A stretch of DNA of 64,000 bases from positions 124,001 to 188,000 of the forward strand of contig JANQRZ010000018.1 in the NCBI GenBank assembly GCA_028284265.1, in the 5' to 3' direction. A program made the translations under genes and the position numbers. The notes under the pieces are model-generated. The model saw only the letters and a program-made list of their open reading frames with translations, made no database searches and was not told where the DNA came from. This DNA comes from Rhodothermales bacterium. GTDB lineage: Bacteria; Bacteroidota; Rhodothermia; Rhodothermales; JANQRZ01. Each line of letters begins with the position of its first letter. The stretch's first letter is position 1. This document shows positions 11,059 through 18,713 of the stretch, piece by piece.

Positions 11059-11934
11059 GTGATTCCCCGCGAACTGTTCAGCAAAATTCGCCACATCGAG
11101 ATCCGCACCAAGGGCCTCGTCAACGACGTATTCGGCGGCGAGTACCACTCGGCGTTCAAGGGACGCGGGATCGAGTTCTCCGAGGTCCGCCCCTACCAGA
11201 TCGGCGACGACGTGAGAACCATCGACTGGAACGTATCGGCGCGGACGGGCGAGACGTATGTGAAGCTCTATGAGGAAGAACGCGAGCAGACCCTCGTATT
11301 GGCGGTAGACGTGTCCGGCAGTGAGCGGTTCGGGACCGGCGGGGTCGAGAAGCGCGAGATGGCTGCCGAACTGTGCGCGGTCCTCGCCTTCAGCGCCGTT
11401 CGCAATAACGACAAGGTCGGACTGCTCCTGTTCTCGGACCAGGTCGAGCGGTTCGTCCCGCCGAAGAAGGGTCGTCGCCACGTCCTCCGCATCGTCCGCG
11501 ACGTGTTCGCCCACGAGCCGCAGGCGGCAGGCACCCGCATCACCGCCGCGCTTGACCACCTGCTGCACGTCCTCCGTCGCCGTGCCATCGTGGTCGTCAT
11601 CAGCGACTTCTTCGACCGCGACTACGAGCGGAAGCTGCGTGCCCTCTCGGCCCGGCACGATGTCGTCGCCGTTCACCTCCGCGACCCGCGCGAGGTTGAG
11701 TTGCCGAACGTCGGACTCTTAACGTTGCGCGACGCCGAGTCGGGACGGCCTGTGCTCGTAGACACAGGAAGCAGAGCAGCGCGCGAAGCGTTCGCCCAAC
11801 AGGCCGAGGCCCGACAGGCCGAGATCGAGGCAGCGCTACGCAGTGCCCGCGTGGACATGGTGCGTGTGCAAACGGACGAGGACTACGTCGAGCCACTCGT
11901 CGGGTTTTTCCGGCAGCGCAACCGGGCGGCGTGA
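11059..11934 (+). CDS. DUF58 domain protein, first gene of the bat operon
   Basis: A 291-residue protein from the GTG at 11059 (encoding the N terminus [20 protein letters not shown]). The upstream TTG at 10993 is rejected because it overlaps the -7 box. It shows the DUF58 signature: [20 protein letters not shown] and [20 protein letters not shown] near residues 30-65, followed by a vWA-like fold with [10 protein letters not shown] near 90. In Bacteroidota such proteins usually follow a MoxR AAA+ ATPase and precede batA; here no MoxR gene is present, since purQ lies upstream on the other strand. It is probably cytoplasmic or membrane-associated. The stop overlaps the next ATG (TGATG). Confidence 0.88.
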
Positions 11935-12869
11935 TGCGATACGTGATCTCGCTTGCCTGTCTGCTGGCTGCGCCTGCTTCAGCCCAGACCATCCGCCTCC
12001 ACGTCCTCACCGACAGCGTGACGGTCGGCGAGCGCTTCGAGGTGGCGGTTGCCGTGGAGCATGCACCGGGCGTACAAGTTGTTTTCCCCGAATCGCCAGT
12101 TGATCCGGTAGGTGCCCCACTCAAAGCCGGGGAGATCGAACTGCTCGACATCCGCCGTCTGCCGCCCGTTGAGCGCGGCGCGGCCCGCGTGGACAGCGCG
12201 GTGTTCGAGGCGGCGACGTTCGCTCTCGACTCGGCGCGCGTCGGGCCGGTGATGGTGCGCATCGTGCGCGGAGCCGATACGACTTTCGCGGCCTCGCCCT
12301 CGGCCCTCGTCGGGGTCCGCTCGCTCGTCCCCGCCGATGCGGAAGAACCGAAGGGCCTCGCACCACTCGCACCGTTTCCGCATGCGTGGGGGCCGTGGCT
12401 GATCGCGGCACTCCTCGTCCTCGCCCTGATCGGTGCCCTGTGGTGGTGGCTCCGCCAGCGTCGCAACCACCCTGCTCCGACCTCGACGCTACCACCAAAC
12501 GAAGAAGTGACGGTTCGCCTTGATGCGCTTGGCAACGCAGCGCCAAAGACGCCGGAGGCTGTGAAGCCATTCTACGTTGAGCTCTCCGACGCGCTGCGAA
12601 CCTACCTCGCCCGAACGCTCGGCGTCCCGGCGATGGAGCAGACGAGCCGCGAGTTGATGAGCACCCTGGCTGAGTATCAGGACGAGGTGCCCGAATCCGC
12701 CCACAAGCGCCTCGCCTCAGTGCTCCGCCTCGCCGACCTCGCCAAGTTCGCCGAGGTACAGCCGGACCCCAGCACGCACGAAACCGCACTCGCCCGAGCG
12801 CGTGAAGCCGTTGCTGCCATCGAAGGTGCGATGGCTCCCGAACCAGAACCCGCCGATGCCTCCGTTTAG
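11934..12869 (+). CDS. Exported single-pass membrane protein of the bat operon (BatD/DUF4381-like)
   Basis: A 311-residue protein. The N-terminal signal [18 protein letters not shown] is followed by a beta-sandwich domain (about 20-140; DSVTVGERFEVAVAVEHAPG), a single transmembrane helix near 148-170 (WLIAALLVLALIGALWWW), and a cytoplasmic helical domain (about 190-290) with the stretch VKPFYVELSDALRTYLARTLG typical of DUF4381/BatD C-terminal regions. Such proteins sit between DUF58 and vWA genes in Bacteroidota and are thought to be part of an inner-membrane complex. The start at 11934 shares a base with the DUF58 stop. The 3' end overlaps the sirtuin start by 14 bp. Confidence 0.78.
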   Translation: MRYVISLACLLAAPASAQTIRLHVLTDSVTVGERFEVAVAVEHAPGVQVVFPESPVDPVGAPLKAGEIELLDIRRLPPVERGAARVDSAVFEAATFALDSARVGPVMVRIVRGADTTFAASPSALVGVRSLVPADAEEPKGLAPLAPFPHAWGPWLIAALLVLALIGALWWWLRQRRNHPAPTSTLPPNEEVTVRLDALGNAAPKTPEAVKPFYVELSDALRTYLARTLGVPAMEQTSRELMSTLAEYQDEVPESAHKRLASVLRLADLAKFAEVQPDPSTHETALARAREAVAAIEGAMAPEPEPADASV

Positions 12870-13608
12870 CGAAACCCTCGTCGAACGCCTCGCTTGTGCC
12901 GAGCGAGTGGCGGTCCTCACCGGGGCCGGTATTTCTGCCGAGAGCGGCGTCCCGACCTTCCGTGATCCCGATGGCCTGTGGCAGCAGTTTCGTCCCGAGG
13001 AGCTAGCCAACATCGACGCTTTTCTGCGCAACCCGGTGCTCGTGCAGGGCTGGTACGCCCACCGCCGCGCCGTCGTCGAAGACGTGCAGCCCAACCCCGG
13101 CCACGATGCTCTCGCGGAGTTGGAACGCCTCGTGCCGCACTTCCTCCTCGCCACGCAAAACGTGGACGACCTCCACCGTCGCGCCGGAAGCGAACGCATC
13201 ATCGAGTTGCACGGCAACCTGACGCGGAGCTACTGCGCCGACTGCGACCGGCCTGCCTCGCGAGACGACCTCGCCGCCATCGACAACGGAGCCGAAGCGC
13301 GGTGCCGGTCATGCGCTGGCCTGCTCCGACCCGACGTGGTGTGGTTCGGCGAGATGCTGCCCGACGGCGCGATGGAGCGCGCTGCCGAGGCCGCTGCGCA
13401 GGCCGACGTATTCCTATCCGTCGGGACGAGGGCGGTGGTATACCCCGCCGCCGGACTACCGCTGATTGCGCGAGAAGCCGGGGCGTATGTCGTCGAGGTC
13501 AACGTCGAGCGGAGCGCGATTGCGAGCGAGATGAGCGAGGTCGTGCTCGGCCCATCGGGCGAGGTGCTGCCTGCGCTCCTCGATGCCGTTCGAGCGTTTA
13601 CTGAGTGA
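12856..13608 (+). CDS. cobB: NAD-dependent protein deacylase (sirtuin, CobB type)
   Basis: A 250-residue class III sirtuin from the ATG at 12856; upstream codons overlap the previous gene. The Rossmann NAD site GAGISAESGVPTFR lies at about 23-36, with TQNVDDLH at about 100-107, catalytic His119 in ELHGN, and a zinc ribbon of Cys127, Cys130, Cys150 and Cys153. Tyr67 and Arg70 (WYAHR) match the YxxR signature that lets SIRT5-like enzymes remove succinyl and malonyl groups. The product would deacylate lysines, consuming NAD. It sits inside the bat operon, overlapping the gene before it by 14 bp and abutting batA with no gap, so coexpression is nearly certain; the functional link is unknown. Confidence 0.93.
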   Translation: MPPFSETLVERLACAERVAVLTGAGISAESGVPTFRDPDGLWQQFRPEELANIDAFLRNPVLVQGWYAHRRAVVEDVQPNPGHDALAELERLVPHFLLATQNVDDLHRRAGSERIIELHGNLTRSYCADCDRPASRDDLAAIDNGAEARCRSCAGLLRPDVVWFGEMLPDGAMERAAEAAAQADVFLSVGTRAVVYPAAGLPLIAREAGAYVVEVNVERSAIASEMSEVVLGPSGEVLPALLDAVRAFTE

Positions 13609-14595
13609 ATGGTCTTCGCGCATCCATATTTCCTCCTGCTCCTTCTCGCTGTGCCCGCACTGGCATGGTGGGAGTGGCAACGCGCACGCCGCCGCCCGGC
13701 TAGCCTGTTCTTCTCTGACACCTCCGCCGCCGAGACCGTTGCGCCGACGTTGTGGGTCCGGCTGCGCCACCTCCCCGCTGTCCTCCGTCTCCTCGCTCTT
13801 ACCCTCGGCATCCTCGCATTCGCTCGACCCCAAGTCCGCGACATTGTCGTCGAGCGCACCGCCGAAGGCATCGACATCGTCATGGTGCTCGATCTCTCGA
13901 CCTCAATGAAGGCCGAGGACTTCCGGCCCAACCGCTTCGAGGCGGCGAAGGACGTGGCTGCGCGATTCGTGGACGGTCGTGTGTCCGACCGGATCGGGCT
14001 GATCGTCTTCGCGGCGCAGGCCTACACACAGGCCCCGCTGACGCTCGACTACGACTTTCTCAAAGAGATGCTGCGGAGCGTACAGATGGGTTTGATTGAA
14101 GACGGTACCGCGATTGGTACCGCGCTCGCTACCGCGACGGCTAGGCTGCGCGACAGTGAGGCTGAGAGCAAGGTCATCATCTTGCTCACTGACGGGCAGA
14201 ACAACCGGGGCGAGGTCGATCCCGCGACCGCCGCCGACGTGGCCGAGGCGCTCGGCGTCAAGATCTACGCCATCGGCGTCGGCTCCGAAGGGCGCGATGC
14301 CTTCGGGCGGCGCATCCCCGACCGCATGCGGCAGATTCTCCCGCAGTCGGCACAGATCGACGAGGAGATGCTCACGACGGTCGCAGAGAAGACCGGCGGG
14401 CGCTACTTCCGCGCCACTGACCGCGAAGCCCTCGCCGCGATCTACGACGAAATCTCTGACCTCGAAACGACCGAGGTGCAGGAGACGAGCTATCTCGACG
14501 TGGACGAGCGCTTCGCCCTCTTCCTCTGGCCCGCCTTCGGCCTGCTCCTCCTTGAAGTGCTGCTCTCGACCACCCGCCTGCGGAGGGTTCCATGA
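13609..14595 (+). CDS. batA: BatA: vWA-domain inner-membrane protein
   Basis: A 328-residue protein with two N-terminal transmembrane helices (about 5-22 and 55-75), a vWA domain (about 85-290), and a final transmembrane helix (about 302-322). The MIDAS metal site is intact: DLSTS near residue 95, the Thr in GTAIGTAL near 167, and LTDGQNN near 196. The layout and length match BatA of the Bacteroidota aerotolerance operon. The vWA domain should face the periplasm and bind a partner through a divalent metal. Its ATG immediately follows the sirtuin stop and its stop overlaps batB by 4 bases. Confidence 0.92.
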   Translation: MVFAHPYFLLLLLAVPALAWWEWQRARRRPASLFFSDTSAAETVAPTLWVRLRHLPAVLRLLALTLGILAFARPQVRDIVVERTAEGIDIVMVLDLSTSMKAEDFRPNRFEAAKDVAARFVDGRVSDRIGLIVFAAQAYTQAPLTLDYDFLKEMLRSVQMGLIEDGTAIGTALATATARLRDSEAESKVIILLTDGQNNRGEVDPATAADVAEALGVKIYAIGVGSEGRDAFGRRIPDRMRQILPQSAQIDEEMLTTVAEKTGGRYFRATDREALAAIYDEISDLETTEVQETSYLDVDERFALFLWPAFGLLLLEVLLSTTRLRRVP

Positions 14596-15605
14596 CGTGG
14601 GCGCATCCGACATGGCTGCTCGCACTCGTCGCCGTGCCCGTCGCGGTGGCGCTGTTCGCGTGGGCGGCAGCGCGGCGGCGCGAGGCGCTTCGTCGGTTTG
14701 CCGGGGCGAATACGTTTGCCGATGCGACGGCCCGACAACGGCGGTGGCAAGCCGCACTCGTGGTGGTTGCTCTCCTCGCCCTCGCGGTGGCACTCGCCGG
14801 GCCGCGCTACGGGACGCAGCTTCGCGAGGTCCAGCAGGATGGCCTCGATATCGTCATCGCGCTCGACATTTCGGAGTCGATGCATGCCGAGGACGTGGCT
14901 CCGAGCCGACTCGACAAAGCGAAATACGAGATCGACCAGTTGCTCGACGATCTCACCGGAAGCAGAGTCGGCCTCGTCGTGTTCGCAGGCGAAGCGTTTT
15001 TGCAATGCCCCCTGACGAGCGACTTCGGGGCCGTCCGCCTCTTCCTCGAAGCTGCCGAGCCGTCGCTCATCCCAACCCAGGGAACCGACTTCAACCAGGC
15101 GCTCCGCGTCGCGTCTCAAGCCTTCGACGTGGCCGATGGCAACCTCGATGGCGGCGAGGCCCGCGCCCGTGCGCTGCTCGTGATCTCCGACGGCGAGAAC
15201 CACGAAGGCGGCTTCCGCCCGACGCTCTCTCAACTCAGCGACGAAGGGGTTGCCGTCTTCGCTGCAGGCGTCGGGAGTGCCGAGGGCGCGCCGATCCCGG
15301 TGCTGCGGCAGAACCGGCGCGTCGGCTACAAGACCGACCGCACCGGCCAAACGGTCCAGAGCCAACTCGACGAGGACGCGCTCCGCGACCTCGTGGCAGG
15401 CGGCGCGTACTACCGCATCGACCGGGGCACGAGCGACCTCTCGGAAATAACCTCGGGCCTCGCCCGTTTAGACCGAGGCCCCGTCGCCAGTGAGCAGTTC
15501 GAGACGTTCGCCGAGCAGTACCAGTGGCCGCTCGCCTTTGCACTGCTGCTGCTCATCGTCGAGCGCTTCGTGACTATCCGCCGCCGTGAATCGGAACTGG
15601 CATGA
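14592..15605 (+). CDS. batB: BatB: vWA-domain inner-membrane protein
   Basis: A 337-residue paralogue of BatA with the same plan: N-terminal helices near 8-25 and 55-75, vWA domain about 85-300, and a C-terminal helix near 312-328 (WPLAFALLLLIVERF). MIDAS residues are DISES near 96, the Thr of QGTDFNQAL near 170, and VISDGENHEGG near 197. It starts in a 4-bp ATGA overlap with batA and ends in one with the next gene, implying coupled translation and fixed stoichiometry. BatA and BatB are known to form complexes in related organisms. Confidence 0.92.
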   Translation: MTWAHPTWLLALVAVPVAVALFAWAAARRREALRRFAGANTFADATARQRRWQAALVVVALLALAVALAGPRYGTQLREVQQDGLDIVIALDISESMHAEDVAPSRLDKAKYEIDQLLDDLTGSRVGLVVFAGEAFLQCPLTSDFGAVRLFLEAAEPSLIPTQGTDFNQALRVASQAFDVADGNLDGGEARARALLVISDGENHEGGFRPTLSQLSDEGVAVFAAGVGSAEGAPIPVLRQNRRVGYKTDRTGQTVQSQLDEDALRDLVAGGAYYRIDRGTSDLSEITSGLARLDRGPVASEQFETFAEQYQWPLAFALLLLIVERFVTIRRRESELA

Positions 15606-16246
15606 TCCTTCGCCTCCTCTTCATCGCGCTGTTCCTTTTCATCGTGCCCGCCGGGGCGGATGAAGGTCGCCGGGCGAACGCGCTGTACGGCGAGGACGAG
15701 TTCGAGTCGGCTGCCGCGCTCTACCGCGAGGGCCTCGACCGGAGCGAAGACGGGGCGACGCGCTCGGCGCTGCTCAACAACCTCGGCTGCGCGCTGTATG
15801 AGCAGGAGGAGTTCGGCGAAGCCCAGACGGCGTTCGAGGCGGCACTTGAGGCGGCGCTGACGCCTGAAGTCCAAGCGCGGGCAGCGTATAACGCGGGCAA
15901 CGCCATCGCCCAGCAGCAAAACCTTGAGGCCGCACTCGGGTTCTACCGGCGCGCCCTCCTCGCCAAGCCGGACCACTTCGACGCAAAGTTCAACTACGAA
16001 TACTTCAAGCGCCAGCTTCAAGACTCCTCGCAGCAGCCCGACTCTGAGACCATCCAGCCCTCGCCCTTCGCCCAGCAACTCAAAGCCCAAGCCGACTCGC
16101 TCGTCGCCGCGCAGCAGTACCGTGCCGCGCTCGAAACCATGCAACGCGGCTTCCTCACCGATTCGACCGTGCAGGCCTACGGCGAATTCCTAGGCCGCCT
16201 GAGTGCGGTCGTCGAGATCGACGAAGGACCGACAGAGCAACCATGA
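15602..16246 (+). CDS. Periplasmic TPR protein of the bat operon (BatC-like)
   Basis: A 214-residue exported protein with signal peptide MILRLLFIALFLFIVPAGA. Helical repeats of TPR type follow: ANALYGEDEFESAAALYREG, LLNNLGCALYEQEEFGEAQ and AYNAGNAIAQQQNLEAALGF at about 24-125, then a more polar C-terminal part. It lacks the conserved BatC C-terminal motif seen in the next gene, so it is an additional TPR component. ATGA overlaps join it to batB and to the following gene. Confidence 0.82.
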   Translation: MILRLLFIALFLFIVPAGADEGRRANALYGEDEFESAAALYREGLDRSEDGATRSALLNNLGCALYEQEEFGEAQTAFEAALEAALTPEVQARAAYNAGNAIAQQQNLEAALGFYRRALLAKPDHFDAKFNYEYFKRQLQDSSQQPDSETIQPSPFAQQLKAQADSLVAAQQYRAALETMQRGFLTDSTVQAYGEFLGRLSAVVEIDEGPTEQP

Positions 16247-16866
16247 TCCTTCTGCTCGCTACCCTCCTTTTTTTGATCGCCGCGCCTTCGGTCGTGGCAC
16301 AGTCGGCGACGGACTACTACCACGCCGCTGCCCAACTATACATCGGCGAGCAAAACCAGCAGGCGGAGGCCGCCGCCGAGGCAGGACTCGCGCTCGAACC
16401 GAACGATGCGAAGCTCCAAGCACTCCTAAAAAAGATCCGCGAGCAGCAAGAGCAGCAGCAGAGCGGGGGCGGTGAACAGCAGGAGCAAGAAGATGCCGAC
16501 GAGCAGCAAGACGGTGAGGGCGAGCAACAGCCGGACTCGAATGCCGAGAATGGCGACGAGCCGCAGGACGAAGCCGAGTCGGAAGGCGAGCAGCAACAGG
16601 CGGAGCAGCCCGGCAACGAGCAGCGGCCTGAAGACGAGCCGGTGCCCGACGAGCGCGAGGCCAACGCGGGCACCGAGGGCGATGCCCAGCCGGAGGAACC
16701 GCAGAACAGCGAGAGCACCGGCACCCCGTTCGAGGTGAAGCCCGGCGAGATGAGTCGCGACGAGGCCGAGCGTATCCTCCGCGCCATCCAGACCGACGAG
16801 TTGGAGTTACTCCGCGACGTGCAGCGCCGCCGCGCCCGCCCTCGCTACGTCGAAAAAGACTGGTGA
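16243..16866 (+). CDS. batC: BatC-like TPR protein with Gln/Glu-rich linker
   Basis: A 207-residue exported protein (signal MILLLATLLFLIAAPSVVAQ) with one or two TPR-like helices (about 22-70). A strikingly low-complexity Glu/Gln/Asp linker follows (about 65-160; GEQQEQEDADEQQDGEGEQ and similar). It ends in the conserved C-terminal element MSRDEAERILRAIQTDELEL with terminal YVEKDW, which is characteristic of BatC-type proteins. The acidic linker is probably disordered and could span periplasmic distance or bind cations. It is coupled by ATGA upstream and GTGA downstream. Confidence 0.82.
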   Translation: MILLLATLLFLIAAPSVVAQSATDYYHAAAQLYIGEQNQQAEAAAEAGLALEPNDAKLQALLKKIREQQEQQQSGGGEQQEQEDADEQQDGEGEQQPDSNAENGDEPQDEAESEGEQQQAEQPGNEQRPEDEPVPDEREANAGTEGDAQPEEPQNSESTGTPFEVKPGEMSRDEAERILRAIQTDELELLRDVQRRRARPRYVEKDW

Positions 16867-18713
16867 GTCGAATGGCGAATGACGAACGTCGAGTGCCGAG
16901 TGGGTGGCGCAGACTGATCGGGCTGATCGCCCTCGTCATGTGGCTCGCTCCGATGGCGGTGGCACAGGTCACGGTGCATGCCTACGTAGACAAGACCACA
17001 ATGGGCGATGGCGAGGTGCTTCTCTACACGGTCGAGGCCAGCGGCGACTTTCGCGACCTCGGCCGGATCACCAGCCCGAAGACGCGCGGCCTGACGGCGG
17101 TGCAGACTAGCCCGATCCAGAGTTGGGACGTGTCGATCCGCAACGGGCAAACACGGCAACGGCTCCGGCTCCAGTGGCAGTTCCGCCCGATGGGCACCGG
17201 CACCGTCTCACTCGGCGAGAGCACCCTCCGCCTCGATGGTCGAGCCTACACGACGGCTCCCATCACCGTGCAAGTCATCCCGCAGTCGCAGCGCCCCTCG
17301 TCCGCGCTGTGGTCGACCGGCCCGACCGCCTCGCCCCGGCCCGACCTAGACCAAGCGTCCGACATCTTCATCCGCGCCGAGCCGTCGTCGGACGTGGCGT
17401 GGCTTGGCGAGCAGGTCGTTGTGGACTACGTGCTCTATTTCGAGGCAGGCGTGCATCCGCGCAACAGCCGGATCGCCAGTGCATGGGACGCCGACGGGTT
17501 CTGGCGTGAGGAACTCAACCTCGACCGCTTCCTCGGCTCGCGCACGGTCGTCCTCGACGGACGCACCTTCGAGGCCGCGCCCATCAAGCGGCTCGCCATC
17601 TTCCCGACGCGCACCGGCACACTTGCCGTGGACTCGCTCGACATCGAGATCGACGTGCTTCGAGCGATGCGGTCCCGCGATCCGGGTAGCCTGTTCCGCA
17701 ACCCGTTTAGCTCCCGGTTCGAGCGCGAGACGCTGACCGCTCCGCGCGTGGCGGTCGAGGCGCGTCCGCCTCCGCCCGGTGCCCCACCCTCGTTCAATGG
17801 AGCCGTCGGTCAGTTCGGCCTCGCCGTGCAGGCCGACCGCCACAGCGTGGATGTAGGCGAGCCAATCCGGGTCACGGCGACGCTCTCAGGGACGGGCAAC
17901 ATCGCCACGCTCGAAGCACCGGACTGGCAGATACCGACGGCATTCGAGCAATACCCGGCCCGCGCCTCCGAGCGGATCAACCGGCACGCCGAGCGGCTGC
18001 GGGGCGAGAAAACCTTCACGTTTACGCTCGTCCCACGCTCCGGCGGCTCGTTCGTCCTGCCACCGCTCGAATGGAGCTATTTCGAGCCCGAGGCGGAGAC
18101 CTACCGCACGCTCCGCTCCGACTCGCTCCGGCTTCAGGTCGTTGGCCCTGCCGCTCCACTAGCTGAAGCCAGTCCGTCCGCATCCAGCGATGCCTTCATC
18201 GGGCCGCTCGAAACGGCGACGTGGCAGCGCGCGCGCGAGGCCGGGCCGCTATGGAATCAGCCATGGGTCTGGGTCGGCTTTGGACTTCCGGCGCTCGCGC
18301 TCCTCGGCCTTGTGGTCGTCCGTCGTCTCCGCGACCGGGACGATGACACAGCGGCGGCACGCAGCCTCCGCGCTTTCCCCGAAGCCCAGCGCGGCCTAGA
18401 GACTGCCGTCGCACACCTCGACGCGGGTGAGTCCCGAGTTTTCTACGCTGCTCTTGACCGCACCCTCCGCCTGTTCCTTACCGACCGCCTCGGTAGCCCC
18501 GCCCATAGCCTCGCCCTGCCCGACCTTGACACGCTACTCGCCGAACGCGGCGTGGCAAACGAAACCCGTGACGCTGCACTCCAACTCCTGCGAGAGAGCG
18601 ATGCCGGACCGTTCGCCCCACGGCCTCAGGCCCCACCCGCCGACATCTTAGACCGCGCAACCCGGCTGATGGCTGCCATCAATGACGAAGCCATCGCCGT
18701 CGAGACGGACTGA
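16863..18713 (+). CDS. batD: BatD: large periplasmic beta-domain protein with membrane anchor
   Basis: A 616-residue protein from the GTG at 16863, overlapping the batC stop; the ATG at 16872 is an alternative. The signal peptide region is LIGLIALVMWLAPMAVAQ. Tandem beta-sandwich domains typical of the BatD family fill about 37-430 (VTVHAYVDKTTMGDGEVLL, IFIRAEPSSDVAWLGEQVVV, AVQADRHSVDVGEPIRVT). A transmembrane helix lies near 465-485 (WVGFGLPALALLGLVVV), followed by a cytoplasmic helical domain to the end. BatD is the largest soluble part of the Bat complex; its role is linked to oxygen and stress tolerance in relatives, with unknown biochemistry. Confidence 0.9.
   Translation: MSRMANDERRVPSGWRRLIGLIALVMWLAPMAVAQVTVHAYVDKTTMGDGEVLLYTVEASGDFRDLGRITSPKTRGLTAVQTSPIQSWDVSIRNGQTRQRLRLQWQFRPMGTGTVSLGESTLRLDGRAYTTAPITVQVIPQSQRPSSALWSTGPTASPRPDLDQASDIFIRAEPSSDVAWLGEQVVVDYVLYFEAGVHPRNSRIASAWDADGFWREELNLDRFLGSRTVVLDGRTFEAAPIKRLAIFPTRTGTLAVDSLDIEIDVLRAMRSRDPGSLFRNPFSSRFERETLTAPRVAVEARPPPPGAPPSFNGAVGQFGLAVQADRHSVDVGEPIRVTATLSGTGNIATLEAPDWQIPTAFEQYPARASERINRHAERLRGEKTFTFTLVPRSGGSFVLPPLEWSYFEPEAETYRTLRSDSLRLQVVGPAAPLAEASPSASSDAFIGPLETATWQRAREAGPLWNQPWVWVGFGLPALALLGLVVVRRLRDRDDDTAAARSLRAFPEAQRGLETAVAHLDAGESRVFYAALDRTLRLFLTDRLGSPAHSLALPDLDTLLAERGVANETRDAALQLLRESDAGPFAPRPQAPPADILDRATRLMAAINDEAIAVETD

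Follow-up and report, generated by a model that had tools for sequence, protein, structure and literature searches.

A MoxR ATPase gene is usually, if not universally, found alongside the bat operon. Additional genes in bat clusters are also not unheard of, since the cluster of Leptospira holds moxR and htpG as extras (PMC3557215). The function of the Bat proteins is still unsettled, as illustrated by a bat deletion in Leptospira that produced no oxidative-stress phenotype (PMC3557215). The enzyme family that concerns us here carries a short acyl-binding signature, YxxR, and desuccinylase activity is lost in PA1125 when this pair is mutated (PMC10652111).

The window, by which we mean the whole 64,000-nucleotide stretch of Rhodothermales DNA that was analysed, carries a bat operon whose core genes (DUF58, the vWA proteins BatA and BatB, TPR and BatD) form a single same-strand run. 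A gene for a predicted sirtuin lies within this run, which is composed of the following features.

11059-11934, + strand: DUF58 protein that opens the operon, predicted cytosolic; Pfam DUF58 289 bits, GTG start at 11059 taken from the sequence, no TM or hydrophobic segment found
11931-12869, + strand: DUF4381 protein with an exported N-terminal part, one TM helix (residues 156-174) and a C-terminal part predicted to be cytosolic; Pfam DUF4381 29.7 bits, hydropathy
12856-13608, + strand: predicted class III sirtuin, CobB-type NAD-dependent protein deacylase; Pfam/NCBIfam profiles, motifs, solved-structure match
13609-14595, + strand: batA (N-terminal BatA domain, vWA, TM); Pfam/NCBIfam profile matches
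14592-15605, + strand: batB (vWA); Pfam/NCBIfam profile matches
15602-16246, + strand: TPR protein, BatC-like; Pfam/NCBIfam profile matches
16243-16866, + strand: small exported Glu/Gln-rich protein, present in part of the order; no family match
16863-18713, + strand: batD; Pfam BatD 88.7 bits
18682-19449, + strand: TPR-SH3 protein, BatE-like

Because the DUF4381 reading frame ends at 12869 and the sirtuin starts at 12856, the two genes overlap by 14 bp (12856-12869). The first-pass annotation had described this overlap, which stands, and had called the upstream gene BatD-like, which does not: that gene encodes the DUF4381 protein, and BatD is encoded at 16863-18713. Its description of the sirtuin as abutting batA without a gap is borne out, as the TGA stop at 13606-13608 is followed directly (gap 0) by the batA ATG at 13609. 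Upstream of the DUF58 gene lies a divergent, purQ-like gene, as read from the sequence together with ortholog matches. No MoxR gene was found beside the window's bat operon, the clear MoxR matches being on other contigs of the genome, and a weak promoter and terminator scan returned no promoter-like sites in the stretch. An anti-phage system was also considered and rejected, since PADLOC matched none of four proteins of the run, namely the sirtuin, the DUF4381 protein, BatA and the protein at 16243.

The sirtuin reading frame opens with an ATG at 12856 and encodes 250 amino acids. It scores 182 bits against Pfam SIR2 and 287 bits against NCBIfam PRK00481.1-3 (NAD-dependent protein deacylase; cut-off 243), and its closest solved structure is Sir2-Af1, matched over nearly its full length with an E value of 8e-64. 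The sequence match to solved sirtuins is decisive for the family assignment. The motifs GAGIS, QNVD, HG (with the catalytic His) and FGE are present, as are two CxxC pairs and the YxxR acyl-binding pair, Y67 and R70, which is invariant or nearly so in an alignment of 129 sequences. Thus, the product is a complete CobB-type sirtuin with the YxxR signature, as had been proposed. It is the only SIR2 match in the window's genome. Among the three nearest relatives, dN/dS for the gene is low (about 0.13-0.23), which indicates purifying selection.

A single site is at odds with this conservation. Residue 192 (13429-13431) is Arg, encoded by AGG, such that the GTS of the NAD-binding core reads GTR, and it is the sole position at which the window's sirtuin deviates from a residue that is more than 90% conserved. 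Its location in the NAD-binding motif suggests that this copy may be impaired, weak or inactive. The reading that the enzyme of this genome is inactive or altered, which is compatible with any other account of the locus, is favoured by the Ser found at this position in 125 of 128 homologs and by the AGC (Ser) codon of relatives from the same genus and the same family. We nevertheless consider it rather unlikely, given that all remaining motifs are intact, that dN/dS is low, that two other homologs carry Gly or Ala at position 192, and that a single-base sequencing error could have produced the AGG codon. We interpret GTR as a change that arose late, in one genome, and that would weaken a claim of activity, not the claim of descent.

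The first-pass annotation left room for the sirtuin being present at this position in one strain only, and a survey of 114 genomes of the order refutes this possibility. With thresholds of E<=1e-60 for batA and E<=1e-50 for the sirtuin, batA was found in 104 of the 114 genomes and a sirtuin ortholog in 62; the lack of an ortholog at this threshold in the other 52 is to be read knowing that some genomes are incomplete. In 49 of the 62 sirtuin genomes, batA follows in the same orientation no more than 500 bp downstream, and in 3 more within 3 kb. The two genes are far apart on one contig in 3 others and on different contigs in 7. Contigs break beside batA in two genomes (G007 and G021), where a further sirtuin fragment is found, and these probably belong among the linked genomes. 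The median sirtuin-batA distance is 69 bp, measured between alignment ends rather than annotated gene ends. The sirtuin is kept in the bat operon across at least 12 families. This retention across the whole order argues that the link between sirtuin and bat is old and real, an order-wide variant of the operon as judged from gene order, and a strain-specific insertion can be rejected.

In a closer sample of 40 related genomes, all 40 with batA, most of the families sampled have the sirtuin at the DUF4381/batA junction. DUF4381 is followed by batA with no intervening sirtuin in 10 genomes, and the lineages with this arrangement are f14, f15, the sampled f5 genomes, G003 and G022; the region upstream of batA was unreadable in G038. 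The sirtuin does precede batA in f5 genomes G092 and G193. Four-bp stop/start overlaps join DUF4381 to the sirtuin in f2, f3 and f4, and the sirtuin to batA in f1 and f4. Two further f5 genomes (G030 and G184; loci L149 and L194) have the sirtuin alone, away from bat, and in G030 the gene next to it resembles, from its sequence, a metallo-beta-lactamase-type exonuclease gene.

The sirtuins of the order form one clade (support 88/97), from which a divergent second type in G066 falls apart. On a bat gene tree built from DUF58, DUF4381, BatA, BatB and BatD, the 12 sample genomes scored as sirtuin-less at the junction require 5 changes, 4 of which are forced by starred branches. Together, the single clade and these 4-5 changes read best as one insertion followed by several clean losses, with the proviso that change counts cannot distinguish gain from loss. 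The bat operon itself has also been split, once in f3 (G004, G018 and G037) and separately in f13 (G080), and in both cases DUF58, DUF4381 and the sirtuin stay together, the part from batA onward lying elsewhere (L119, L135, L156 and L189). In G055, the sirtuin remains by batA and DUF4381 is about 2.4 kb away.

The splits in two lineages that leave the sirtuin with DUF58 and DUF4381 make coexpression of the sirtuin with its bat neighbours well supported. Operon membership and likely coexpression, both predicted earlier, also agree with the conserved gene order and strand, the short median spacing, the recurrent 4-bp overlaps and the single clade. For the sirtuin itself, the analysis shows the gene, its family, its motifs, its conserved position, its single clade and purifying selection.

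Outside the order, no sirtuin adjoins batA among the matches listed for 296 phylum genomes, whose coordinates were compared by eye; the closest same-contig pairs among those matches are about 26 and 30 kb apart. For 80 named distant relatives, the flanking DNA examined (mostly 6 kb) contained no bat-type gene. A sirtuin next to bat as a widespread pattern is rejected on these counts (0 of 80, and none adjacent among the phylum matches listed). Other sirtuins were encountered along the way. Genomes of the same class (e.g., G082, G090, G093, G108, G110 and G137) recurrently have a different sirtuin of about 230 amino acids some 1.7-2 kb from a contig end, as though it neighboured a repeated element (an rRNA operon, for instance). 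Several genomes of the order have a second, longer sirtuin (about 300 amino acids) whose N-terminal part shows about 40% identity. Genomes of the order hold one or two sirtuins here, below the average of more than three that a review gives for Rhodothermia (PMC8603916).

The explanation we favour, with a probability of roughly 0.6, is a single old entry, retention in the bat operon and a mainly general deacylase role. A CobB-type class III sirtuin gene would have inserted once at the DUF4381/batA junction, in or near the order's common ancestor, and would since have been retained there and translated with its neighbours, as the overlaps suggest. The enzyme would be an NAD-dependent lysine deacylase of the cytosol with a broad range, its abundance coupled to that of the Bat membrane complex. 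As the genome's only sirtuin, it would have general deacylation as its main task. Against this account stand the 52 of 114 genomes with no ortholog at the threshold, the 10 genomes in which DUF4381 runs straight on to batA, the solitary copies of two f5 genomes and Arg192 in this genome. It is also conceivable, although we give it less than even odds, that the gene landed by chance in an expressed operon and is kept only because leaving would cost it expression, with no functional tie to Bat. The general character of the deacylase family, the several clean losses, the solitary copies of G030 and G184, and the location of the nearest phylum relatives away from bat (among the matches listed) would all fit such a history. 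Retention through at least 12 families is harder to accommodate, as is the persistence of the sirtuin with DUF58-DUF4381 after the operon splits.

The topology of the Bat proteins constrains any direct role of the enzyme. Simple hydropathy and flanking charges place the vWA domains of BatA and BatB probably on the periplasmic side, and DUF58 and the DUF4381 tail in the cytosol; Bat lysines are few, and the majority of them are probably periplasmic. If a Bat target exists, cytosolic DUF58 or the cytosolic tail of DUF4381 would be likeliest, not the BatA/BatB vWA domains. This topology, along with the many intact bat operons that have no sirtuin, argues against an obligate Bat role. Four lysines of DUF58 (K9, K34, K69 and K98, counted from the GTG start codon) are near-invariant whether or not a genome has the sirtuin, and no DUF58 lysine peculiar to sirtuin-bearing genomes was seen in the genomes compared. 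A lysine in the cytosolic tail of DUF4381 (about K212 in our numbering) occurs in 21 of 27 sirtuin-bearing genomes versus 4 of 11 sirtuin-less ones, a weak hint of a link in that the genomes are related.

These lysines, the conserved junction and the two lineages in which the sirtuin stays with DUF58-DUF4381 on operon breakage might point to a dedicated regulator that deacylates the cytosolic Bat parts and so couples Bat assembly to the NAD/acyl-CoA state. We regard this as unlikely, in that the DUF58 lysines are equally conserved without the sirtuin, bat operons persist sirtuin-less in several lineages, and no report tying sirtuins to Bat was found among the papers searched. The stronger proposal, that in one order the sirtuin is a built-in Bat partner whose action on DUF58 or the DUF4381 tail would link a periplasm-facing vWA assembly to the cell's NAD/acyl-CoA state, appears similarly unlikely, and NAD/acyl-lysine control of Bat, as first suggested, is a guess. 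Since some lineages retain the sirtuin and sister lineages have lost it, this conserved operon deacylase gene offers natural pairs in which effects of NAD-dependent deacylation on a DUF58/vWA system could be compared.

The locus resembles the bat operons of Bacteroides fragilis (batI) and Leptospira in carrying DUF58, vWA BatA/BatB, TPR, BatD and TPR genes in one run, and differs from them in having a sirtuin between DUF4381 and batA and no adjoining moxR. With CobB and the class III bacterial sirtuins (PRK00481; Sir2-Af1, SIRT5), the predicted enzyme shares a full catalytic domain, Zn-binding cysteines and YxxR, whereas its placement in a bat operon and the replacement of GTS by GTR set it apart.
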